Source of the DNA: Antennarius striatus
Taxonomy: Eukaryota > Chordata > Actinopteri > Lophiiformes > Antennariidae
Length of the DNA stretch: 64,000 nucleotides
Assembly: GCF_040054535.1 (NCBI RefSeq)
Contig: NC_090780.1
Coordinates: forward strand, 15,199,001-15,263,000
Direction of reading: 5' to 3'
In this document: positions 8,167 to 59,049 of the stretch, one piece after another
Layout: each line of letters starts with the position of its first letter
Position numbering within the stretch: the stretch's first letter is position 1
The notes under the pieces: model-generated
Database searches by the model: none
What the model was told of the DNA's origin: nothing
Seen by the model: the letters and a program-made list of their open reading frames with translations, nothing else
Translations under genes and position numbers: made by a program

Positions 8167-18777
<10,611 letters not shown>

Positions 18778-21035: not shown

Positions 21036-21290
21036 TATGACTACACATTCATTTATCTTTTATTTTGTGTCGCATTATTCAGACTTTCAATTAAATGTTG
21101 TCCTCAAATCAAGAAAATCACGACCCCGTCTGTTCAGATGCACGACTTTTCTTACAAATACAGCTATCCCATTTGGTAAATTTTCCTGGAGACAAACCCT
21201 TCAGAATCATCAAATAGGAGTTCCACAGGATTGCAGGTGAATGACGTAGAAATCTGATAAATTAAATCGAAATTATATTCTCTTAATGAA
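21036..21290 (-). mobile_element. Harbinger-associated non-coding remnant
   Basis: Read on the minus strand, 21175-21280 contains CACCTGCAATCCTGTGGAAC, then GATGATTCTGA(A/C)(A/G)GGTTT. This matches the plus strand at 28190-28265, next to a Harbinger transposase fragment. The shared block shows both belong to one dispersed family. No frame is preserved. Confidence 0.45.
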
Positions 21291-22389: not shown

Positions 22390-22500
22390 GTTTAGAGTGT
22401 TCATTCATCTTCTAAACCTGTGTCATTCACTGTCGCGGGTTTGGGGTTTCTGGAGCCTATCCCAGCCGACTGGTGGCGTGAGGCAGAATGTGAATATAAA
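22390..22500. repeat. dispersed teleost repeat fragment
   Basis: CTGTCGCGGGTTTGGGGTTT then GGAGCCTATCCCAGCCGACT resembles a very common fish repeat (CGCGGGG ... GGAGCCTATCCCAGC). A better-preserved member is at 62070-62250. It ends where the ube2j2 duplication block starts. Confidence 0.5.
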
Positions 22501-22725
22501 CTATAGCAGAACAATAGTGCATTTTTTGCTACACCCTTCAACAATCCATGAGCCAAGTTTGTTCCTACTGCAGTCACAAACGACTGAAGCAGAGTGGATC
22601 GCAACCATTTTAAGAAACCCCTTCTGCCCCCCCAGCCCAGCTGCAATTCCCACCCACTCCCCCACTTCCTCTCAACTAAAAGCCTGGGTTGGCGTCTAGT
22701 TTCCATCACCCAGGATTGAACATCA

Positions 22726-22920
22726 AGGGCAGTCAAGGCGAATGGCAGACCTCGGGAGTCTGGGTCCTGCCCGGAATTTGTTCCTCAATGTGGGAGTTTT
22801 TCCCCACCGCTGTTGCTTCTGCTTTCTCTGGAGGGTTCAGTTGGTTTCTCTGTCTGTTGAAGCGCTTTGAAATGTCTGCTGTGGTGATTAAGCGCCATAC
22901 AAATAAAAGTTGATTGATTT
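22726..22920 (+). mobile_element. SINE-like repeat abutting the ube2j2 copy A stop
   Basis: This block is absent from unit B and ends AAGCGCCATACAAATAAAAG then TTGATTGATT and a T run. It has replaced the sequence directly 3' of copy A, about 10 bases from its stop codon. It contains the box-like CTGTTGAAGCGCTTTGAAAT shared, inverted, with 20554-20665. Confidence 0.6.
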
Positions 22921-22934
22921 TTTTTTACCAGCAC

Positions 22935-25681
22935 TCACTCCTGGGCTATTGTCCACAGCACAAACTTGACTACAAAGGCAAACGCCGCAAAGCCTGCAAA
23001 CACAAACGGGTTGGCTAGAGCCCCGCCTAAAAGTCTGTGGTTGTGGTTGGCCTGCTGTAGACCAGGATCAGGGTTGGCACCCCTAAGTGGTATAGGACCT
23101 CCATTGAGTGCGTGGTGAGAAGCTTTTTGTTTCTGTTTAATCTCCTGGTGGAGGGAATGAGACAAAATGATCCACATTAGGCCAAAAAACACACAGCAAT
23201 GGACGAGAAGCTACCAGACATCAGAAGACTTACATCGACTACGTCAGGAAACAGCTCGCAAAACACCTCGTCCTTGAGATTAAAGACCAGACTTTCCACT
23301 GACAGCTGTCTTTTCTGGAGAAAACAAAGTAAGTAAATAAATAACTAAATAATGCCCATCACATATCTGGGAGACTACAGATCACTTATCATGTTAGATG
23401 TTTGTGCTCACTGTATTGTCAGAGGTCTCGATGCTGCCGAGGGTGGGGCCTTTCTCCACCATAAAGCTAAGCAGACCTGTGAGGATGGTAGAAACTGACC
23501 ACGCTGGGTTCCACGTGTCTGGATGGAAGTCTGTGATGGACAAACATAACCTGAGGAAAAAAAACAGTTAATGTTATATGAAAGATCTACACCAATGACC
23601 CAAGATTTTTCAGAAATTTTAGTTGGAATCTCTAATAAGAAACATAATTCTCACCTTGTGTTACACTTAAATCTCCCATTTGGTGTTATCATATAGATAC
23701 TTGGTGGTTTAAAAGGAAATTCCCGGGGAAATATAATTTTTCCATGATAATATCCTCCTATAGAAAAGATTGACAAGTTGGATTGTATCATATCACTATG
23801 ATATCAGCTTCCCCCCGAAAAAATATAGAATAAAAAAAAGTGAAGACATATTCAAATATGAAACTTTCTTGTAAAGCAGGAAGCAGAAACTTCTTATAAG
23901 GTGTGTGCTAGATAACTGTGGCAAATTTCTACCTTCATATGGCGTTTTCTCAGGACCTCTGACGACATAGTGCCTGGAGGAGACATGAAACGACAGAATA
24001 CTTTTGAATAAACTTTTTTTTTTTGAATATCCATTCATATATTGCCGTGCACATTGCATGACATACAAAACTACAAGGAAAAAAAGAACAATAAGAACAG
24101 AAATAAATGCACTCCTCCGTTCTAGCTGGCTGGAGGAAAGTCTTTTCCTTTCAGCGTTTCCCTTCAGGGGTCGCCACAGCGAATCAGTTGCCTCCATCTA
24201 ACCCTGTCTTCTGGATCCTCTTCTCTCACACCAAGTACCTTCATGTCCTCTTTCACTACATCCATAAACCTCCTCTTTGGTCTTCCTCTAGGCCTCCTGC
24301 CTGGCAGTTCAAAACTCAGCATCCCTCTACCAATATATTCACTATCTCTCCTCTGGACATGTCCAAACCATCTCAGTCTGGCCTCTCTGACTTTATCTCC
24401 AAAACCTCTAACATGTGCTGTCCCTCTGATGTACTCATTCCTGATCCTATCCAACCTGGCCACTCCCAAAGATAGTCCCACCATCTTCATCTCTGCTACC
24501 TCCAGCTCTGTTTCCTGTCTTGTCCTCATTAACACTGTCTCTAGACCAAACAACATCACTGCTCTTACCAGTTTTGTACACCTTTCCTTTCATTTTAGCT
24601 GAAACTCTTCTATCACACATCACATCTTTTCTCCACCGCTCTCACATACTTCTCTGCCACTCCAGACTTCCCCATAGAATACCATAGTTCCTCTCTGGAC
24701 ACCCTGTCATAAGCTTTCTCCAGATCTACAAAAACACAATGCAGCTCCCTCTGGCCTTCTCTGTACTTCTCTATCAACATCCTCAAAGCAAATACTGCAT
24801 CTGTAGTACTCTTTTTTGGCATGAAACCATACTGCTGCTCAGAAATTCTCACTTCTACCCTTAGCAGCTTCAACTACTCTTTTCCATAACTTCATTGTAT
24901 GGCTCATCAGCTTTATTCCTCTGTAGTTGCCACAACTCTGCACATCTCCCTTGTTCTTAAAAATGGGCACCAGCACACTTCTCCTCCATTCCTCAGGCAT
25001 CTTCTCACTATCTAAGATCCTGTTGAACAACCCAGTCAGAAACTCTACTGCCACCTCTCCTAGACACTTCCACACCTCCACAGGTCTATCATCAGGACTG
25101 AGTACCTTTCCACTCTTCATATACTTTCTTTTTTAAACAAGAGCAACAGAAAAATAATTTATCTATATCCCCTTTTTTATTTTCTGCATGTTTGGAGAGT
25201 TAGGAGATTAAGTTCCTGCTTTTGTTTGGCTCTGTTTTGTTATTACATCCCGCTTCAAAGCGGTCTATTGTAATTGTCAGTGTTCGTGTGTTCGTTTGTT
25301 TGTTCGTCCATTCGTTCATCCGTTACTATGTCCACCAAATATCTTTGCAAGCATTGCAGATAGAAAGATGAAACAGAAAGCAGATTACTCAGGCAGCACA
25401 AATTTCTCAAGACCTTGACCTTGAGAAAACTAGGTCAAGGTCAAATTTCAAGTTTTGTACACTCAGGAACCAGATAAGATGGAAAACTGAAAAGAAGTTC
25501 AGTGCTTTAGCGACTTCTGATGATAAGCCTCAATAATATGGAGACCTTACCATTCTAGGATGTTGGAGGGTAGAGGTTCTGCACGGATGTAAGGCACAGG
25601 GTCTTGCTTTATTCTGAGGTAATCCTTCGTAAGTCGTTGAGCGGCTGTGGTCGACACTCTTTTTTTCCCGTTATTGCTCAT
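22935..25681 (-). CDS. ube2j2: UBE2J2-like E2 ubiquitin-conjugating enzyme, tandem copy A
   Basis: Tail-anchored ER E2 enzyme used in ER-associated degradation. Exons in gene order: 25681-25551 (ATG 25681-25679), 23973-23933, 23757-23655, 23550-23412, 23314-23234, 23144-22935. All junctions are canonical and frame is kept throughout: 234 codons and TGA, against 261 in copy B. Active-site Cys94 in [12 protein letters not shown] is present. Differences from copy B: nine substitutions in the first 43 residues ([10 protein letters not shown] start), Y to N at the end of exon 5, an in-frame loss of about 27 residues of the linker after EIKQKQKA, and a changed anchor ([15 protein letters not shown], ending VLWTIAQE). 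An RTE fragment sits in the intron after the first coding exon. No promoter exon like that of copy B is found. It could be a young functional paralogue or an unexpressed copy not yet broken. Confidence 0.8.
24160..25135 (-). mobile_element. RTE-type LINE fragment in the ube2j2 copy A intron
   Basis: The minus strand gives reverse-transcriptase pieces in order: [20 protein letters not shown] and [20 protein letters not shown]; then [20 protein letters not shown] and [20 protein letters not shown]; then the C-terminal [11 protein letters not shown] and [20 protein letters not shown] up to [11 protein letters not shown]. These match fish RTE elements. The segment with the FADD catalytic box is missing between about 24603 and 24613 and the frame shifts, so the element is dead. 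It is in the same orientation as the host gene and absent from copy B. Confidence 0.85.
25238..25500. mobile_element. non-autonomous Harbinger-like element, truncated copy 2
   Basis: TTATTACATCCCGCTTCAAA starts the copy. It then shares ATATCTTTGCAAGCATTGCA and ACCTTGACCTTGAGAAAACT with the element at 21331, including AGGTCAAGGTCA at 25432-25443. It breaks off after a GGAACCAGATAAGAT stretch, so the second inverted end is missing. Confidence 0.6.
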
Positions 25682-26021
25682 CTGTGGATATAGATGACAA
25701 ATTAGCTATTTCAACTTACGTTACTGGTTAAGTTTTGCTAAAACCATTGGAGAGCTGAGATAAAGCAGTCTAATGAAAAATAGATTGTGACCAGAGAGTT
25801 ATGACAAAACATATGGTACTCTTAAAGTATATTGAACTGTTGGCTATTGCATGAAGTCCCTACTTTATCGCCGTCCACTAATCTACATCACAGTCACGAA
25901 GATGAATGGAACCTAGGACACTAAAAACTATACATACCTGTGTATACATTTTTATTCTCTTATCTATTATCTATTTATTATGATTTATTTTAGTTCTTCA
26001 TTCTTAAATTCTCCTTATTCC

Positions 26022-26058
26022 GTGTATGTGTGTGTGTGTGTGCGTGCGTGCGTGTGTG

Positions 26059-26090
<32 letters not shown>

Positions 26091-26092
26091 AA
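26022..26092. repeat. (TG)n microsatellite
   Basis: TG-rich run with CGTG interruptions, in intron 1 territory of unit A. Confidence 0.9.
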
Positions 26093-26529
26093 CGTATCCA
26101 CTCTTTGTCTCTCACAAGGCTGGGAATGAGTGATAATTTCAGCTCTTGATTTCTGCCTGGATTATTTCACATGCAGCGTTTAGGTCAAGTTGAACATAAC
26201 CCTTGACCGGTGACAGTTAATATGTTAGGCTATAAATAAAGGCTGAGGCTGTTTGGTAATGGGCTGTGTTGTCAGTTTGGATACACTCAGCTCTCAGATC
26301 ACTTAGAAGAGCTGAAGTTGCTTTAATTCATCAAAAACCAGAAAACAGTTCTGAGTTAGTAGTGTCTGAAGCAGAGCCAAATAGCCAAATGCTAACTGAT
26401 ATCAACAGCTTGTGAGGAACTTTCAGTGTATAGCTCTGACTGCTACCTTAGCCTGAACACAAACTCAACGTCAGGGATGACCAAACCTTATCCTGGTGGA
26501 CAGTCAAAAATTTGACTCAGTATAGGTCA

Positions 26530-27575
26530 AGGTCATAGGCTATGGGTCCAGACAACATTAGCTCCAGGCTACTGAAATCCCGTGCAGACCAGCTGAGTGG
26601 GATTGTTGAACACATGTTCAACCTGAGCCTCAAGCTGAGGGTCCCACAGCTGTGGACAGCTTCCTCCATGGTTCCTGTATCCAAGACGCTGCACACAAAG
26701 GACCTTAACAGCTACAGGCCGGTCGCGCTAACATCCACCCGATGAAGACTCTAGAGCGGCTGGTCTGTAGTCATCTCCGCCCCCTGATGAGCCCGTTATT
26801 GGATCCACTCCCGTTTGCTTTCCAGCCTACCATCGGGGTGGATGACGCCATCGTCTTCCTCCAACAGTGGGCCATCTCTCACCTGGAGAGACCTGGGAGC
26901 ACTGTGAAGATCATGTCCTTAGATTTCTCCAGCGCTTTTAACACGATAGCGTCAGCACCTCTGAGAGACCATCACCTCAACTTGGACCATCAACTCTTCA
27001 ACGTGTCACCTGCAGAAGTTCTCTGATGACTCTGTAATGCCTCATCACTGACGGGGACGACAGGGAGTACAGACAACTGACCTAGGACTGGTGTCAGCTG
27101 AGCCGCTTCCAGATCAACACTGGGAAAACCAAGGAGCTGGTGGTGGATTTCCGCAGGCGATCACTCTGCCTGGCGACACCAGTGACCTTCCAGGGATTGG
27201 ACTTTGAGATGGTGATAAGTACCTGGGTGTTCACCTGAACAATAACTATCTGAACTATCACCTGAACTATTGCAGGTGTTTCCTCCGGGATTAATTAAGT
27301 ATCTATCTATCCTGCAGCTGTCAGACTATATAACCAGCACTGCTCGCAATCAACCACACTCAGAAAATCAATCTCAGAATCTGTATGAGCAGTGTAGGTT
27401 GCAAATTGTAACCTGTACATCCCTAAATATGTATCTCAGAATGTCTGTATGTATGAAGCTGTGGTACTACTTTATCCTACTGCCGTCTATCCTATTCTTC
27501 CATTCTATCTGGATACTGCTGCCACAATCATGAAATATTCCCCACTGTGGGTCGAATAAAGGATTATCTTATCAT
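26530..27575 (+). mobile_element. internally deleted CR1/L2-like LINE
   Basis: The plus strand reads GPDNISSRLLKSRADQLSGI, then PVSKTLHTKDLNSYRPVALT and MKTLERLVCSHLRPLM, up to MSLDFSSAFNTI. It then jumps to pieces near DGDDREYRQLT and GKTKELVVDFRRRS. The palm region with the YxDD box is deleted and stops are present. The 3' end is preserved as CCACTGTGGGTCGAATAAAG then GATTATCTTATCATT, the usual tail of such elements. Non-functional. Confidence 0.75.
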
Positions 27576-27899
27576 TAAGCTTCTAAGTGTAACATAAACA
27601 AAGTGTAGGCCACCTTAAAGCGTAGATTGAAATCGTCGGTGTCACAGCTATGTTCCTGCTTCTGGCTTTGGACATGAGCCACGTGTGTGACTGAAAAGGT
27701 TGTTTTATGCTTGTTTTATGGCTTTTATACTTTGATGGCTTTTATGTATTGAAGCTTTAAAGTTTTTTATGGTTTTTCAGTAATTAGTCTGTGCACTATT
27801 CTAGATGCGTTACCCTCAGTTTAACATACGCGCGAGAACGTAGATAGAAAATTGACAGTACATAACGAAACCAGGAAATTTATTAGACTACCGATGTAG

Positions 27900-28065
27900 T
27901 CCCAGGACCAGGTGGAGGGATTATATCTCAACACTGGCTTGACCTTGGGAGCCTCCAGTCAGAACTAGTTGATGTGGCTGGGAAAAGGGAAGTTTGAGGT
28001 TCCCTGTTGAAGCTGCTTCCTCCCCGACCCGACTACGGATGAGTGGATGAAGATGGATGGCGGCA
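27900..28065. repeat. dispersed teleost repeat
   Basis: CCAGGTGGAGGGATTATATC, then GTTGATGTGGCTGGGAAAAG and CCGACCCGACTACGGATGAG ending GATGAAGATGGATGG. I know this string as a very common fish repeat, probably the 3' part of a non-LTR element. No frame is open. Confidence 0.55.
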
Positions 28066-28069
28066 AGTG

Positions 28070-28960
28070 CAGATATACAGTATCTTTAAAAATGTAGACT
28101 CCATCTGGTGGCCTGAGAAGGTATTGACTACTCATCAACATTATAAAGTAATATACAGTAATTTCAAATTAATTTATCAGATTTCTAAATCATTCACCTG
28201 CAATCCTGTGGAACTCCGCATTGATGATTCTGACAGGTTTATCTCCAGGGAAATTGACAAACGGGTGAAAGTCGTCACAAGGCGAGGCACACTGAGTATC
28301 CCTCACATTGTATCGAAAACTACTGTTTGGAAATAAGTAAAAGATGAAACACAGCACTACACACAGTTCCTGCTGGGATGTGAGAGCATGACTGATTTGT
28401 TATTCTGTAAATGTGAGGATTGATTAGGTCGTGGATGTGTGTGATGGATCGGTACATGAACCAGTACCGATCATAAAGAAAATTGTCTGGATATGAGGGG
28501 ACATCTGAACGAAATACAATAATATTTAGTTCTCTCTGAATTAATGCCAGACCTTCACCATGGGATCCTCGCCAAATGGACATACCATGTTTGCATATTA
28601 AAATACAGACTGAGTTTCCTTTTAAAGATCAAACTGAACTTTAGTAAAACTCTCTGATGGAAAACAGGAAATGAAACGGTGTGAGCGGCTTTGAAAGAGG
28701 GTGGAGTCAGAGGAAACCCTGGGTTCATGAAGTAAAACCTGCTCCTGACTAAGTTGGTTCCAGAGAGTCTGTTACTATGGTAACAAATGCAGAGGTTCAG
28801 TTACCTCGCTTTGTGAAACAAGTTACTTCTCTGACTCTGGGTTAAGTTACTAGGGTTAAGCCATGTATTCGTTTCAGACGAGTATCCGGTACGGATATAG
28901 CATTTTGGATGAGTACGAGCATGATACAAGTAAAACTCGTCAGTACTCCTGCTTGTGTTA
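28070..28960 (-). mobile_element. Harbinger-like element, left part with transposase N-terminal fragment
   Basis: The minus strand 28583-28338 reads SDVPSYPDNFLYDRYWFMYR, then SITHIHDLINPHIYRITNQS. This matches the (Y/F)LY(E/D)RYRF ... I.YLNDLLRPYI.N(I/V)T block at the N-terminus of HARBI1-type transposases. The neighbouring 28190-28265 block recurs at 21175-21280. The element continues to about 28960, where a LINE interrupts it, and appears to resume at 29835. Confidence 0.55.
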
Positions 28961-28962
28961 AA

Positions 28963-29780
28963 GGAAACACGTGCTCTCCCCCATTCTCTTCACCCTCTAC
29001 ACATCGGACTTCAAGCACAACTCGGATACATGCCACATACAGAAGTACTCAGATGACACTGCGATTGCGGCATGTATCCGGGAGGGTGATGAGGGGGAGT
29101 ACAGGGGTTTGGTGGCTGACTTCGTGGAGTGGTGCCAACAGAACCAGCTCCAGCTCAACGTCTTCAAGACAAAGGAGATGGTGCTGGAGTTCCGGCGGGC
29201 ATCTCCCTCTCCACAGCCAGTGATCATCGAGGGCAGTGAGGTGGAGGTGGTAGGAAACTATAAGTACCTGGGACTGCAGCTAGACAGCAGACTGGACTGG
29301 TCACTCAACTCGGACTGTGTGTACAAGAAGGGGCAGAGCAGGATGTACTTCCTGAGGAGGCCAGCCTCCTTCTACATCTGTCCTAAGCTCCTTCTCATGT
29401 TGTATCAGTCCGTAGTTTCCAGTGTGCTGTCATACGCCATTGTGTGTTGGGGTGGCAGGGCCAGGAAAAGAGATATGGACTTAACAGACTCATTCGCAGA
29501 GCGGGCTCAGTGGTCGGGCTGAGCCTGGACTCTGTGGAGACAGTTCTGCAGAGCAGGACCATGTCTAAAGTTAAGGCTATCATGAACAACACCAGCCACC
29601 CCCTGCACACCACCTTCTCCCAGCAGAGAAGCACCTTCAGCGACAGACTGCTGTCACACAGCGCCTCCAGAGAGGCTGAGGTCCTCCTTCGTGCCCCGTA
29701 CCATCAGGGGGTACAATGACTCTCTCAGGAGGAGCGGGGTGGAGGTGGCGAGGTCAGCACGGGGTTGAATGGATTTTATT
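28963..29780 (+). mobile_element. 5'-truncated LINE (reverse transcriptase C-terminal half)
   Basis: The frame opens in the palm domain: LSPILFTLYTSDFKHNSDTC, then QKYSDDTAIAACIREGDEGE carrying the YxDD catalytic box, then EVVGNYKYLGLQLDSRLDWS and LMLYQSVVSSVLSYAIVCWG. A frameshift near 29470 moves the remaining C-terminus (LIRRAGSVVGLSLDSVETVL) into another frame. The sequence resembles the LINE at 26530. The insertion sits inside Harbinger-like sequence. Confidence 0.8.
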
Positions 29781-29834
29781 TAATTCTATACTGTTTATAT
29801 TTTAAACAGCATAAAATTAAATTAAAAAATTAAA

Positions 29835-29935
29835 TTACCTCCCTTTGTGAAACAGCAAAATGCGTTTCCCTAATTCCAGGTTTACCATACCCAGGGTTTC
29901 CTCTAAACCTGCTTTGTGAAACGGACCTCTGGACA
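29835..29935 (-). mobile_element. Harbinger-like element, right part after the LINE insertion
   Basis: TTACCTCCCTTTGTGAAACA and CTAAACCTGCTTTGTGAAAC echo TTACCTCGCTTTGTGAAACA at 28800-28820 on the other side of the LINE, consistent with one element split by insertion. The exact terminal repeat cannot be fixed. Confidence 0.4.
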
Positions 29936-30134
29936 CGACCCGTCTCACACTCAATGCCAGCTTGGATTGGTTTTAGAACTATGACATCAATCTGGACAAA
30001 CACCTCAGATGAAGGAATGAATGAGCAGACAGATCATAGGCATCTGAAAAGTATGGGGGTGTTATGATTTTAACAAGTTTGTATTTTATAGTTTTCAATG
30101 CAGTCATGGAACAAAAATTCTTCAAATGACAGTA

Positions 30135-30135
<1 letters not shown>

Positions 30136-30204
<69 letters not shown>
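30136..30204. repeat. (CA)n microsatellite
   Basis: A pure CA run of about 68 bases between the two ube2j2 units. Confidence 0.95.
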
Positions 30205-30206
<2 letters not shown>

Positions 30207-32064
30207 TTCCTTCTTTGTAGGGTCAGACTTGACAACTCAAATTTCGTAATTTTCCAACAGAATCAGATAAAATGAAGGTTTTCTAAAATGCCTTGCCAAG
30301 CAAGGAAATTTATTTGCATTTACTATGAAAACATACAATGTCACACAAGATTAACTGAAGCATGGAAATTTGGGCGTTTTCTGTAGTTAGGCAAACACAC
30401 TCTTATCAGCAGTTTGTCTTTTTTAAAGATGCTGCCAAGAAAAGAGCAATAAAGATGCAAATCATCTTTTTTTTTTTTTTCAGGTGAAACATTAGATACA
30501 CAGTAGAACCATCTTCACTACCTGCAAAACAACACAACGGTAAATTATTAGCAAATCTGTGCGCCTGAAACACAGCCTGCCTTTTAGTTTGCAAACCTGA
30601 TAAGCAAACACTAGACTTTGAGGCTGTCTATAAATAGGAAGGATGAAACACAAGCTGAATTTATAAAAAATTTAAATTTGGAAAAAAACCCCCCAACAAA
30701 ATCAATATTAAGATTAAAACCAGTTGTTTTTTTTTTGTGAGTTCTAAATTGGACCAATAAAGTTTGACAGTATATTTGTTAGCTAAGCCAATTATCAAAG
30801 TGCAGTTCAATTTACTTTTTGGCAGACATTCGGTACACTTGTTGGCTCATGGGTTGCCAGGAGGGAATGTCTGGACTTGTACCAAAAGATCTCAAGGTAG
30901 TGCTTTTTGTTTTCCCCAAGGAGACACACACATGAATCCACTTTCCGATGCTCGGCTGTCGAAAGACAACGTTCTTCTGAATTTGCTCAACCTGTGATGG
31001 ATCATCTGCTTCGGTGTAGAAATTAGACTCTAATAATGAGTTACAGTATTACTGTAGGCAAATGTCATTCTTCATTTCCAACATTTGTGGGTGCTGTTTT
31101 TAATCATTCTTTACACTTTACAAGTTTGTTTTCACACGTCTTCTCATGGAAACTTGTCACTGGGTGTCAGTGATCTCAAACAATTTTCACAGATAATAAA
31201 CCTATCTACCACCCTTTCATGTTGCTTGACATTGTCCAGGATGTGGTGATGGGGACATACGATGTACAAACGTACAAACGAATGCCCTTCATGCTGTAGT
31301 TCAACACGTGTGTGTGTGTCTGTGTGTGTGTGTGTGGAGAAACAGAAGCACGGCTCTTTTCAGACGTGCTGCTTGGCTCAAATCACGTCGCTTTCTGAGA
31401 GCCTCGACAGGTTAAGATAGGTAACCATGGTAACCCATGGAAATGTGAACAAAATAAAAACAAAAGTTACAAGGTGAAGCCTGATACTTACAGTATTCAA
31501 GTGTTACAGACAAGCTACCTTGGCCACTGTCTGTCATGTTGTTGCTGTTGCCATGACAACTCCATTCTGCCACTGAACTAACAATATTAAGTGCTTGCAT
31601 CCAATAATATTTCCCTACGAATAGTACATATTTAACATAAGATTGATTTGGTGATTGATTGTAAGATTCCAGAGAAATTCCAGAGACTATGTCAACACTC
31701 TAAGTGGTTTGGAACTCTCAGACTGCTATGTTTTTAGAACCTTTTCCTAAGAACACAACCAAACCTGACACAAGGAAGGTGGAAGTAGAGGATTTGGTTC
31801 TTGAACTGCAGCTGCAGGTTGATGAAACCTGATGCAGTAAAAAAAGTGTCAAAAACAGTTGAAATTTGCTTCAAACACACATTTATAAAGCAGAACCACA
31901 GGAATGATTTCTGTAGCACTCATTGTCTCGTGAATGAAAGCATCTAGCACTGAAACAGTGTAAGGTCCCACCCTGAGGTGTCCAGGATTTTATAACTGAC
32001 AATGAAAAGGGAAATTGTTTTTGTAGTAGGACTTGGGACCGGGGAATTTAACAGGCTCGTCAGT
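30205..32064. other. spacer between ube2j2 units, nothing recognised
   Basis: AT-rich sequence with a short TG repeat (31306-31337). ORFs are short, in all frames and without motifs. No repeat family is recognised. Confidence 0.6.
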
Positions 32065-35000
32065 CCAGCAGAACAACAGTGCATTTTTTCCCTGTCTCAT
32101 TTAAGCTTATTTCTGTTGTGCCCATCCACCAACATGGTGCAACAAATGCTAATAAGTTCTACACCCTTTAACAATCCATGAGCCAAGTTTGTTCCTACTG
32201 CTGCCACAAACGACTGAAGCAGAGTGGATCGCAACCATTTTAAGAAACCCCTCCTGCCCCCCAGCCCTGCTGCCACTCCCACCCACTCCCCCACCTCCTC
32301 TCAACTCTTCCTAGGTGGGTTGGCTTTTAGTTTCCATCTTTCAAAGTCCTTAGTGGTGGTGGTGGTGGTGGTAATGGAGGGGTTTAACCCAGGATTGAAC
32401 ATCCCTCCCCCACGTAATGTGTTTATAGAATGTGGAGTCCACTAGCTGGCTCACCTGCAGGGGGAGCGTTGCTCTACATCACCAGCACCTCTCACTCCTG
32501 GGCTATGCTCCTCAGCACATACTTGACTGTGTAGGCAAACGCCGCAAAGCCTACAATCACAAACAGGTTGGCTAGAGCCCCGCCTAAAAGTCCATGATTG
32601 CGATTGGCCTGCTGTAGACCAGGAGCGGGGTTGGCACCCTCAAGTGGGATAGGACCTCCATTGAGGGCGGGGAGGCCATAGTGGGCGTGGTGAGGGTCAC
32701 CATCAGGCACCACGTCGGGTAAGGGGAGGGGCTGCATGCGGGCGCTCAACTCCTCTTGAGCTTTTTGTTTCTGTTTAATCTCCTGGTGGAGGGAATGAGA
32801 CAAAATGATCCACATTAGACCAAAAATAAAAAAAGAGCAACGGACGAGAAGCTACCAGACATCAGAAGACTTACATCGACTACGTCAGGAAACAGCTCGC
32901 AAAACACCTCGTCCTTGAGATTAAAGACCAGACTTTGGGCTGACAGCTGTCTTTTCTGGAGAAAGCAGAGTAAATAAATAACTAAATAATGTCCATCACA
33001 TATCTGGGAGACTACAGATCACTTATGTTAGATATTTGTGCTCACTGTATAGTCAGAGGTCTCGATGCTGCCAAGGGTGGGGCCTTTCTCCACCATAAAG
33101 CTAAGCAGACCTGTGAGGATGGTAGAAACTGACCACGCTGGGTTCCACGTGTCTGGATGGAAGTCTGTGATGGACAAACATAACCTGAGAAAAAAAACAG
33201 GTCATGTTATGTGAAAGCTCTACACCAATGACCCAAGATTTTTCAGAAATTTTAGTTGGAATCTCTAATGAGAAACATAATTCTCACCTTGTGTTACACT
33301 TAAATCTCCCATTTGGTGTTATCATATAGATACTTGGTGGTTTAAAAGGAAATTCCCGGGGAAATATAAGTTTTCCATGATAATATCCTCCTATAGAAAA
33401 GATTGACAAGTTGGATTGTATCAACCAAAAATGGAATAGAATACAAAACAAAAAAATATATTCAAATATAAAACTTCCTTATAAACCAGGAAGCAGAATC
33501 TTCTAACAGGGTGTGTGCTAGATAGCTGTGGCAAGTTTTTACCTTCATATGGCGTTTTCTCAGGACCTCTGACGACATAGTGCCTGGAGGAGATGAGAAA
33601 TATTTCTGACAGTAAACACTTTTGAATCAACATTTTTTTTCCATTCACGTATCATCGGGCACATTGCAAAACTGGTACAAAACTACGTGAAAAACTAGAC
33701 AATGGGAAGAGAAATAAATACACTTCTCCGTTCTAACTGACAGGAAAACGCACAGGTATAAAGTGTCCTGAGGGCACGGATACAATAAGTCATTATGGTT
33801 ACACCTGAATATCTGACCCATGACAGTGTGGGTCATTCCAGCCTTGTAGGCACGAAAGGTTTGTTTCCTGACTGGGCTGCAAACAAACAAACAAAGTGAC
33901 CACTGAGGATAAGGACGGAGACCATACCATTCTAGGATGTTGGAGGGGAGAGGTTCTGCACAGATATAAGGCACAGGGTCTTTCTTTATCCTGAGGTAAT
34001 CCTGCTTAAGTCGCTGAGTGGCTGTGGTCGGCGCTCTCTTATTCCCGTTATTGTTCATCTGTGGAAAGAGATGACAAATTATCTCTCTCAAATTATGTTA
34101 CAGTTTAAGAACTGCTTTAAACAGTCTCAGAGCTTGACCTCAATGAAAACTGATGACTGCAGGTGATCTTGATCTTTTTAAACAAATATAGTGTCATTCT
34201 GAAGAGTAATCCAATATGGAGTGAGAGGTTTGAAAAATTATGCTGTACTGCAACTGTTAATTGAGATATAATCACATTTAAATGCCTTAGTTGGCATATA
34301 GAAATGTATAAGTTAGAAGATGCCGTTCAATGTATAACCTATGCAAAAAAATAGTTGCAAAAGCAGTTAATTTACAATAATACCAAACAGACAAGAAACA
34401 AAATATCACATTAGAAGCAAGAGGCTTTAAAAGGGCTCATGATTAGCTATTTGCACTTCAATACAACATAAACAATTTATAATGAATTAATAATTTGGTG
34501 CAGACACCTGAACCAGAAACGTATTGCTGTGACATAACCCACTGGCTCACTGCCCGCCAGTCTCACATTAAATATTTTCCTTGTGATTTATGTGGCTCTT
34601 TATTTACGTGTGATTTAAATGAACATGCTATTGAACAATACTGTACAGATTGATGTGCCGTGTGTAGCTACGTATAAAAGTGAAAGCAAAAGATGAAGCA
34701 TTAAGTACAAACTTAAAATGGAAATAAAACTAGCTTGACACTACATTAGGTAAAGACTTTCTATGTACCTCACATTGTCGTCCCGCCTTAATGAACTCAA
34801 CATCACTGTCAAACCTGCATCTCTGCCTCCTGATAACCATCATGTGGCTAACAGCTGACAGCACAAAGCTAGCCCGTGTATTGTAACGTTAGCGTCCAAA
34901 TGATGGCACTGCACTTCCTAACAGATGCCAGGCTGATCGGTGTGGAGCCAAATGTTACACGGAAAAAATCCTCTTCTTTGCAAGCCATGTTAAGTTATAA

Positions 35001-35125
35001 TTACATCTCTAACTAGCCAACCTGATCACTTAGTTAGCTCCAAGTCACCTACTCAGCCGCTGACAGTAACATAAACAAGGTGTAGACCACCTTGAAGCTG
35101 CAGATTGAAATCGTCGGTGTCTGAT
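32065..35125 (-). repeat. segmental duplication, unit B (contains ube2j2 copy B)
   Basis: Counterpart of unit A. It shares the 3' flank beginning ACAATCCATGAGCCAAGTTT (32170) and the intron-1 segment at 35080-35122. Unit B lacks the inserted mobile elements and joins directly to a promoter region, so it is taken as the ancestral locus. Confidence 0.85.
32492..34058 (-). CDS. ube2j2: UBE2J2, ER-anchored E2 ubiquitin-conjugating enzyme, copy B
   Basis: Transfers ubiquitin in ER-associated degradation, with its catalytic domain in the cytosol and a C-terminal membrane anchor. Exons: 34058-33928 (the ATG is the first base of the exon after the acceptor), 33583-33543, 33390-33288, 33184-33046, 32955-32875, 32782-32492; 261 codons (human 259). 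It starts [23 protein letters not shown] core motifs [40 protein letters not shown] and the active-site [15 protein letters not shown] with Cys94 are all present. A Pro-rich linker follows [12 protein letters not shown]. The tail [20 protein letters not shown] then [13 protein letters not shown] matches the human tail as I remember it. Upstream is a non-coding exon ending at 35345. Confidence 0.95.
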
Positions 35126-35241
35126 GGCTTAAAACGAACCACTGCATAACAATACATGATGTCTAAATAGCTAACGCTAGCAGGGCGAGCTGTGTGGAAC
35201 TACGTTAATATGTTCGCAGCTAAATGCTAACATTAGCTAAC
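34885..35241. promoter_or_regulatory. AACGTTAGC-type motif cluster in ube2j2 intron 1
   Basis: AACGTTAGC (34885-34893), GCTAACGCTAGC (35170-35181) and GCTAACATTAGCTAAC (35226-35241) lie within the 460 bases downstream of the promoter exon of copy B. The words are near-palindromic and related to those at the hipk1 promoter. Confidence 0.4.
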
Positions 35242-35344
35242 TTGGGCCAAGGCAATGTTTAGCTCAACACCGTCAGCGCTACCACTTGTGACAATAACGA
35301 AAGCAGAAACAAAAATATCTAAAAGCCGCCTAATAAACACATAC

Positions 35345-35500
35345 CTTTCCAAAGACCACAGTGGAAGCAAGTATTCGTGACCGGACACGAAACACGGCTG
35401 TTGTTTCGGCAGCCAGTCCCCAGACCGATTAGACGATGGCACCGACTTAGCTTTAGGTAATTTACCGTCAGCAGCAGGAAAAACTCTTGCTTCCGGTTTA
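35345..35500 (-). promoter_or_regulatory. ube2j2: ube2j2 copy B promoter and non-coding exon 1
   Basis: On the minus strand a donor GGAAAG|GTATGTG ends an exon at 35345. Upstream lies CCGGAAG (35496-35490), an ETS/GABP-type site common in TATA-less housekeeping promoters, and no TATA box is seen. The exon would be 5' UTR, since the coding exon at 34058 begins exactly at its ATG after the acceptor. Start site not determined; no counterpart exists in unit A. Confidence 0.5.
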
Positions 35501-38150
35501 CTTCTTCGTTGGTGTTAAACCGGCTGAAATATTGCCTAGAACGTACATTACCGCCACTATATGTAATTTACAACCCTAATACCCTATTATTCTCTATCAT
35601 AATATGAACAGAAATTTGTCACTAGTGGAAAATAAGTATCTGTGCTCGCATCACAGAGTAGAGGGATAAGAGTGGATTTATCAATCTTGAGTCTAGGTTG
35701 ATGTTTGGTATATATTTGTGCAGATGCACCATTGCTATTTCACTGACCTGGTGACAAGTAAGGTGATGCATCCTGCGTTCCAGTCACATTATCATGGTCA
35801 TCGTGCCCTATTTCTGACATTCATCAAGCTATTTTGTTAATAACACGAGTATTCTTCAAAAACGATCCTCTGGTCCATATCTAAAAGATGACAAACCCAC
35901 ATAAAACTTGTTGACACATTTTTTTTTTTTAAAGATTAAAAAAATACAAATTCAAAAAAATATTCACTGGGGATGTTTATTTTAAACTGTTTTATTTGTG
36001 ATAAACTGCATACAATTTAAAATCATTCAATGTGATCTTTGACAGTGAAAAACTAAAATTCAAAACATTAACGCGGCACTTCACTGAGTCAAAACATCAA
36101 GTATAACTAGCCCACCGTAAAGAGTGCAATTAACACCATGGAGATATTTGCATTTTTCTATGGAGGAAGCTAGACATTATCTAAAAATTAATCCAGATGA
36201 TATTATCAAGGTTATTTCAGGTTTAACTTTGAGATTATATGGGAACTCCAACAAAATAATCTTCTGAATTGTTGTATTAATTGAGTTCAATTTCTGACCT
36301 TTTGGAGGCATCTCGACCAACATATGAGTGAAATTCTTAGCCTCTGCTACATCATTTTGGAGAATTCTTTTTATACATGAGTGAAAACTCCTAAGTGTTT
36401 AACGCAACCTGATGCTTCTTCATTGCCATTACCAAAACTGGTGTCACTTCAGCAGAAATAACATCTGTGCAAAATAATTGCTTGACCTACAGCTGATTTA
36501 ACTTTTTGACAAGAGTAAGGTCTTTCATATTAACCTAAATGTCCAAACATATATTTACACTAGCAATTGTGAATAAGTCTTGTGCTGAGGCCATTGGCTT
36601 GTGCTTGCAGTGTTGACCCTATGGAATCAGAAATTGCTTTATAAAGTCATGTGGCCTCCTCTCTGACTACTGGAAAAATAAAGCAGTCATTGGTCACTGT
36701 GGCTTCTTGCAGTAGCTGAAGTGTGTGCTCCTTCTCCTCAACTTCTCGGGCTGGAGAGACGCAAGGAGAGAAAACTCGCGAAAGACATCAACACTGGAGA
36801 CATGATCTGCAAAAGGGGACATTAAGGTCAAGCTAGAGATTGTCCCATGGTAGAACTCTGTTAAGACTGCAGTGACAATCCTTTTTTGCAACTTTAACAT
36901 CAGTTGTTAACTTTAGTTAAAGTTACAAAACACAACAAATGTTTTTCACGTCTTAATCCATTGAAAATCAGCTCACACTTTACTGCTCGCTAAGAAAGAA
37001 GAATTGTCAAACATGACACAACAAAGTCCCAAAAGTATAAAGACGATGGGAAGCTCCTGAGTTTTTTTTTATTGACATCGGGATATTTTTAACTCATTTT
37101 GTTTGAGAGCATAATTTATTATCCTTGTTTATCTTCCTTCACAAACCGTCCATTCATTACAGAGCCAAGACTCCTGTATTCATTCGCTTTGATATTCTAA
37201 TCACATCACATCAATAGAAGTATTACTTACCCTTTCTATGTGCCCTACTAATTGTAATTGCTGGTCATATTTTTCCTGAGGACACAATCATCCTTTTTTC
37301 TTCTGAATGCCTCATTGTTCACAAGGGATCACAAAAATTTGCAAACATTAAGACAGCACCGCCTCTTTTCCCAGAATGTGTGTGTGTGTGCGTGAGAGAA
37401 GGAGGAACAGATGTGGACACCCTAAACACCACCACCACAGCAGAGAAATCACATAATCACACTGATTCCCTAGTAAGACGGCCCAGAATGCTTCACTCAC
37501 TCTATCCTTGGGTTTAATGCTCCTGCTGCGTGTGGCAACCCCTGTGGTAACAGAAGTAACGGTTGTCAGTGTTTATTTACTCAAGTGGACATGTGTTGTT
37601 TGCCTTAACTGTAAGGCGAAAAAGCATTAATGTATAAAATAGTTAGACATTTATGGCATGAGAGAACATTTTTTCAGTCGCTGTGTATTAATGCTCACAT
37701 AAATGTTTTACACACTGGAGACACTGAATTATTCAAGAGCCGGTGTTTCTGCCCTCGACCAGAAAGTGAGAAACTATTTGAAAAAACGAAACCATAAGGA
37801 CTAACGTGATCTTGAAACAATTAGTTGACACTTATCTGTCAGTGTGGAGATGTCCATGTGTACACCTTTAATATAGTTCTTATCATGAAGAAAATTGTTT
37901 TATTGCTTTGAATAAGCTGAATGTTGCCCAAAAGATTGTTATAGACCAAAAGACATCAATGGACATTCTCTCAACATCACAATATGTATCTACATTGCCA
38001 CATTTCTTTGAATGAGTATTTGACTAAGGTAGTCCACAGAGCAACTTTTTTTTCCAAACATATTGCTGGGATGCTGAGAGAATGTTATGCAAAAAGAGAT
38101 GAATAAGAAACCGACATGAGAGCAACAGGCAGGAAGCAGGGTTAGTTTTT
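35501..38150. other. spacer between ube2j2 and acap3, nothing recognised
   Basis: 2.6 kb of AT-rich sequence with no exon-like frames, RNA genes or named repeats. Transcription of both flanking genes is on the minus strand, so this is the acap3 terminator side and the ube2j2 upstream side. Confidence 0.6.

Positions 38151-40547: not shown

Positions 40548-59049
<18,502 letters not shown>

Follow-up and report, generated by a model that had tools for sequence, protein, structure and literature searches.

We analysed a window of 64,000 nucleotides of the Antennarius striatus genome (NCBI RefSeq assembly GCF_040054535.1, contig NC_090780.1, positions 15,199,001 to 15,263,000 of the forward strand), which carries two copies of ube2j2, the gene for a tail-anchored ubiquitin-conjugating enzyme (E2) of the endoplasmic reticulum (ER). 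Both copies lie on the minus strand, head-to-tail, and the start of copy A is located about 6.8 kb 3' of the stop codon of copy B, the canonical gene (Table 1). Spliced translation showed that exons 2 to 7 are open in both. All 10 introns between coding exons, five per copy, have GT-AG boundaries, each copy also has an AG-ending acceptor in front of the ATG exon, and the splice consensus of copy A resembles that of copy B. No disabling mutation was found in copy A when its frame, start codon, coding sequence (CDS) and splice sites were checked. The matching blocks of the two copies, up to 1030 aligned columns long, show 86-91% identity, well above chance. These results agree with a sequence-only reading of the same DNA, which had described two same-strand copies with intact frames and canonical splice sites, and a copy A of 234 codons that keeps Cys94; the anchor sequences that it quoted were also correct.

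Divergence between the copies is uneven along the gene. Exons 4-6 and their introns differ by 1-6%, and exon 2, the linker/tail exon and introns 1 and 2 by 11-22%. For noncoding positions, 36 of 202 differ in the alignable parts of introns 1-2, compared with 14 of 282 in introns 4-6 (Fisher P 7e-6), and, over 631 noncoding sites, intron 3 holds the best change point, which 0 of 5000 permutations matched. Synonymous differences number 12/77 outside and 2/83 inside the low-divergence tract (as entered, P 0.004), and synonymous divergence (dS) drops from 0.18 for exon 2 and the linker/tail taken together to 0.025 for the core. The simplest cause of this central block over exons 4-6 is gene conversion, at about 23.12-23.80 kb. 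On the divergence profile, the catalytic core of copy A is therefore one that was recently renewed by conversion. Because Cys94 lies within the converted tract, its conservation is weak evidence, not independent evidence of use. The transfer probably ran from B to A, since copy B holds the ancestral protein. The unusual residues V148 and E154 are common to both copies, and may predate the duplication or have been transferred in the other direction, from A to B. Tandem duplicates homogenised by gene conversion form a general class; the ube2j2 pair shares with them the block-like shift in divergence across exons and introns alike, and differs in that the direction is here deduced from the ancestral protein of copy B.

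The protein encoded by copy A has taken up nearly all of the change. Amino-acid differences between the copies amount to 26, which were polarised with 82 homologues sharing 80% identity or more with copy B. By our reading of the site table, 22 changed on A and none clearly on B; the other four (sites 2, 195, 213 and 218) are ambiguous, and 24 was taken as the working count for estimating omega, the ratio of nonsynonymous to synonymous rates (dN/dS). Radical replacements at conserved sites include C33R, R256W and L238P, and further replacements (T14A, K18T, Q19K, K26Q, V242A, Y249F and T250V) fall at sites nearly invariant among those homologues. Omega on the copy A branch is estimated at 0.64-1.1 under an assumed split in which 50-70% of synonymous changes occurred on A. 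No value clearly exceeds 1, so that a replacement rate above neutral was not detected on copy A. Neutral dN/dS, which the sequence-only reading had named as a result that would speak against a used copy, is thus nearly reached on this branch. The pairwise dN/dS is 0.57 overall (bootstrap 0.31-1.16) in an alignment with two deletions, which replaced one with a single 27-codon gap (0.59), and by our reasoning it is close to the value for one constrained and one free copy. The amino-acid sequence of copy A shows no detectable constraint, and its ends appear to drift about as fast as unconstrained DNA. The pair clearly illustrates that a drifting copy can, through conversion, seem conserved at the active site, just where one checks first.

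On its upstream side, copy A also differs from copy B. Similarity between the copies spans the 3' block to a 56-bp remnant of intron 1 and no further, and the sequences flanking the 56-bp element are unrelated on both sides. This element is most plausibly what remains of the duplication's edge; that it is a known RNA element was rejected, no Rfam family reaching the gathering score anywhere in the window. The duplicated span had earlier been drawn to position 35125. Similarity does extend to 35121 of copy B, within intron 1, but this part includes no coding-exon match and falls short of the probable exon 1 of copy B. The latter, placed by eye, coincides with a stretch where CpG observed/expected is 0.88 (windows 35000-35499 and 35250-35749), against 0.10-0.62 for the remaining 40 windows between 26.0 and 36.7 kb. 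Neither the probable exon 1 nor the CpG-raised stretch left any trace in a search upstream of copy A. As similarity ends within intron 1, copy A would lack the probable exon 1 and promoter of copy B, and would then need another promoter or splicing from the probable exon 1 of copy B, which lies upstream of it on the same strand. An exon-like stretch at about 28.19-28.34 kb was considered as a new first exon of copy A and dismissed as a repeat (28159-28265 matches 21168-21275 on the opposite strand, 87% over 108 columns). Transposon insertions in the introns of copy A, which the sequence-only reading had reported, are only partly borne out: intron 1 contains a sequence resembling reverse transcriptase (RVT_1; 26709-27023) at 20.6 bits, under the Pfam cut-off of 29.6, and a Pfam scan of two frames in the long intron 2 found nothing above cut-off. 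An RVT_1 match over the cut-off lies in the spacer between the copies (28962-29519).

A copy A that is effectively dead, promoterless, neutral and unbroken so far because it is young and had its core recently wiped by conversion, would account for similarity that stops short of the probable exon 1 and promoter of copy B. It would equally fit the estimated omega of 0.64-1.1, a missense count at neutral expectation, and chemically random replacements that include the radical ones at conserved sites. The survival of the gene structure argues against it. Neutral survival was simulated from copy B, with 6000 runs for each of six rate settings, scoring retention of the start, frame and splice sites and absence of a stop, and ranged from 0.000 to 0.033. 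It was 0.006, 0.0015 and 0.000 at the three settings that came closest to the noncoding divergence measured, and 0.033, 0.015 and 0.0008 at the three slower ones; survival by chance is therefore unlikely. In the coding sequence, the length difference between the copies is best accounted for by separate in-frame deletions of 63 bp and 18 bp, and there is no frameshift. The earlier claim that about 27 linker residues were lost in frame was right as to number and frame, except that it counted one deletion. Both deletions are multiples of three, the splice consensus of copy A remains similar to that of copy B, and the protein is annotated in public data, all of which counts against a dead copy, a less likely though plausible reading. 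Low neutral survival together with two in-frame deletions provides moderate evidence that copy A would have encoded a useful protein during part of its history. The sequence-only reading had expected an unused copy to gather stops or broken splice sites; the simulation and the deletions support that argument, while the intactness of Cys94 and exons 4-6 carries little information, as these lie in the converted tract.

We therefore favour, with a probability of roughly 0.55, a reading of the sequence in which copy A, a tandem paralogue of ube2j2, is young and specific to the lineage of the striated frogfish (Antennarius striatus), and was kept in frame by relaxed selection together with conversion. 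Copy A would have arisen without the original exon 1 region, or later lost it. Copy B kept the ancestral protein and nearly all replacements fell on copy A, at a near-neutral rate; conversion, presumably running from B to A, would have overwritten the catalytic core in exons 4-6. Selection that was weak and relaxed, favouring a protein product of some kind, may have held copy A in frame for much of its life, with conversion helping. That copy A serves as a second enzyme is possible and unproven.

Database comparisons placed both copies among UBE2J2 proteins. Copy B is 96% identical to UBE2J2 of Maylandia zebra. The copy A protein is identical over its full length (100%) to P0056, annotated as 'ubiquitin-conjugating enzyme E2 J2-like [Antennarius striatus]'; public annotation thus includes the gene, which, as a duplicate, is ordinary. 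A whole-protein search returned no other A-like protein, as opposed to canonical UBE2J2, among the best 120 of the 2806 matches listed. In a tree of 24 proteins, A and B group together (93/93), with branch lengths of 0 for B and 0.36 for A. Judged by titles and the openings of abstracts, no literature was found concerning a tandem copy of ube2j2 in fish.

The sequence-only reading had itself raised an assembly artefact, in which two haplotypes of a single gene are laid side by side. We rejected this, in our judgement, on the divergence between the copies: 36 of 202 noncoding sites in introns 1-2 differ, the contents of the introns are not the same, and the copies are separated by a spacer of about 4.4 kb in which a copy of the sequence upstream of B was sought and none found. 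The published chromosome-level assembly of A. striatus is based on high-fidelity (HiFi) reads and had its haplotigs purged, and it may not be the assembly of this window (PMC11192929). Nothing was found in favour of an artefact of this kind, which is hardly credible here.

Several observations weigh against a paralogue retained by relaxed selection. The missense count is neutral-like (24 taken as observed, against 18.9 or 29.3 expected), and replacement chemistry did not differ from random (BLOSUM62, P 0.18) and thus gives no sign of purifying selection at the amino-acid level. Neither anchor hydrophobicity (P 0.19) nor the lack of a strongly polar anchor residue (P 0.38) departed from expectation, and anchor chemistry was dropped as proof of selection on the former value. 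The indel rates behind the survival estimate come from few events, the noncoding sequence that could be aligned being under 1 kb, and survival reached 0.033 at one setting. In the 3' block divergence is just 5.8% (10/172), near the upper range of the core introns, yet the block lies outside the converted core and adjoins exon 7, which is 12.8% diverged; a single tract leaves this unexplained, and the block may either have undergone a conversion of its own or be a 3' untranslated region (UTR) under constraint. As to lineage specificity, a search with residues 165-234 of copy A found P0056 alone, and was insensitive, missing the tails of canonical UBE2J2 too. The A+B fork (93/93) is under the tree tool's mark of 95, copy A was flagged as a long row, and its placement is unsure. 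The search for copies covered this window.

Membership of copy A in the UBE2J2/Ubc6 family of E2 enzymes is indicated by its match to human UBE2J2 (PDB 2f4w, E 3.6e-106), which is also its best fold match (85% identity). AlphaFold2 modelled the UBC domain mostly with confidence, and less so at residues 91-110 by the active site (block predicted local distance difference test, pLDDT, 64 and 58). A tail helix is predicted at residues 211-233 (mean pLDDT 77.4), which, with a mean Kyte-Doolittle hydrophobicity close to that of copy B (1.98 vs 2.01), is consistent with a tail anchor. If translated, copy A would yield an E2 of the UBE2J2/Ubc6 kind, tail-anchored in the ER, that has its catalytic core intact, a shorter tether on the cytosolic side, and changes in the N-terminal helix and the anchor. 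It shares with human UBE2J2 and yeast Ubc6 the UBC fold, Cys94 and the predicted C-terminal anchor helix, and departs from them in its linker of 31 residues (58 in B), Asn137 and replacements at near-invariant sites. Altered reach, as suggested by the sequence-only reading, is possible given the shorter linker, but swapping the linker or anchor of human UBE2J2 left its lipid response in place (PMC12511567). Altered localisation, also suggested, finds nothing that points to it, the hydrophobicity of the anchor being unchanged.

Six diverged fish J2 or J2-like proteins, picked by hand, offer a comparison: Megalobrama P0076, Leuciscus P0079 (unnamed product), Xyrauchen P0107, Doryrhamphus P0053, Dunckerocampus P0105 and Eucyclogobius P0120. 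All six keep Cys94 and have the linker and/or anchor altered or lost; in P0053, P0105 and P0120 the full anchor is absent. Alteration or loss of the anchor is possibly a recurring fate of ube2j2 duplicates, the paralogy of these six being assumed. Unlike copy A, they carry Phe, Tyr or His at residue 137.

Position 137 is Asn in copy A, Tyr in copy B and Phe in human UBE2J2. Among 141 informative homologues, 131 have Phe, Tyr or His and none Asn; the others have Ala (3), Ser (2), or Cys, Thr, Leu and Arg (1 each), plus one misaligned row. Copy A thus lacks the aromatic residue, a feature of human UBE2J2 and not strictly of the family, and the few homologues with Ala, Ser, Cys or Thr indicate that its loss occurs elsewhere in nature. 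In the study of the human enzyme, C94A is the catalytically inactive form, ubiquitin loading of F137E is insensitive to lipid packing, and F137Y is still sensitive (PMC12511567). By analogy, copy A might be a neofunctionalised ER E2 in which Asn replaces the aromatic residue tied to switch-off in loosely packed membranes and the tether is halved, so that the enzyme would be constitutively chargeable and lipid-blind. Y137N is among just four core replacements since the conversion, and Cys94 and Phe100 are retained. Nevertheless, the substitutions at 137 in the passages cited are Glu and Tyr, with Asn not among them (PMC12511567), other homologues also have a non-aromatic residue there, one given codon would by our arithmetic be hit by chance in about 3% of cases (4 changes over 128 codons), and the estimated omega is not clearly above 1. 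We consider such neofunctionalisation unlikely, and a lipid-blind copy A is a prediction, not a finding. A split of frogfish UBE2J2 into two enzymes, B (Tyr137) regulated by lipids and A (Asn137) blind to them, constitutively charged and on a short tether, the latter a natural counterpart of F137E, is very unlikely. If expressed, copy A would provide a naturally occurring change at the residue through which, as reported, human UBE2J2 is coupled to membrane lipid packing, making this mechanism testable beyond engineered mutants.

Table 1. Features of the ube2j2 pair, in window coordinates.
Feature	Position	Strand	Remarks
Copy A coding region, ube2j2-like	22935..25681	-	exons 2-7; 705 nt including stop; 234 aa
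Copy A CDS exons	25681-25551, 23973-23933, 23757-23655, 23550-23412, 23314-23234, 23144-22935	-	
Copy B coding region, canonical ube2j2	32492..34058	-	exons 2-7; 786 nt; 261 aa
Copy B CDS exons	34058-33928, 33583-33543, 33390-33288, 33184-33046, 32955-32875, 32782-32492	-	
Cys94 codon, copy A (catalytic Cys)	23544..23546	-	derived from exon coordinates; within the putative converted tract
Codon 137, copy A (Asn; Tyr in B, Phe in human UBE2J2)	23415..23417	-	derived from exon coordinates
Junction of the two in-frame linker deletions (63 + 18 bp), copy A	23111..23121	-	from A/B alignment
Altered tail anchor and lumenal tail, copy A	22935..23033	-	residue 203 onward, with stop codon
Putative converted (low-divergence) tract, copy A	23121..23800	-	late intron 3 to start of exon 7; from divergence profile, edges approximate
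3' block, presumably UTR	A 22529..22707; B 32159-32338	-	10 substitutions/172 sites
5' limit of A/B similarity (56-bp intron 1 remnant)	A 27593..27648; B 35066-35121	-	
Probable non-coding exon 1 and promoter region, copy B	35345..35480	-	left edge is donor AAG|GTATGT; right edge guessed

Around copy B, an open stretch beginning ATG ATG was read by eye in intron 1 (34769-34843, minus strand; MMVIRRQRCRFDSDVEFIKAGRQCE), with a possible GT donor at its end; it may serve ube2j2 as an alternative first exon or may have arisen by chance. Downstream of the stop codon of copy B, no AATAAA occurs for about 2.2 kb (the nearest AATAAA being at 30309 and the nearest ATTAAA at 31099, in 27700-32492 on the minus strand), so that the 3' UTR of copy B may be long, or termination in the direction of copy A may be weak.

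The pair is flanked by two other genes. A protein kinase gene on the plus strand, which we take to be HIPK-like, covers at least 8167-10535, with Pkinase matches at 8167-9051 (below cut-off) and 10203-10535 (above). Upstream of copy B, on the minus strand, a gene spanning at least 44235-52641 has ArfGap (44235-44534) and BAR (52357-52641) matches and is presumably acap-like, probably acap3-like; in human, too, ACAP3 adjoins UBE2J2.

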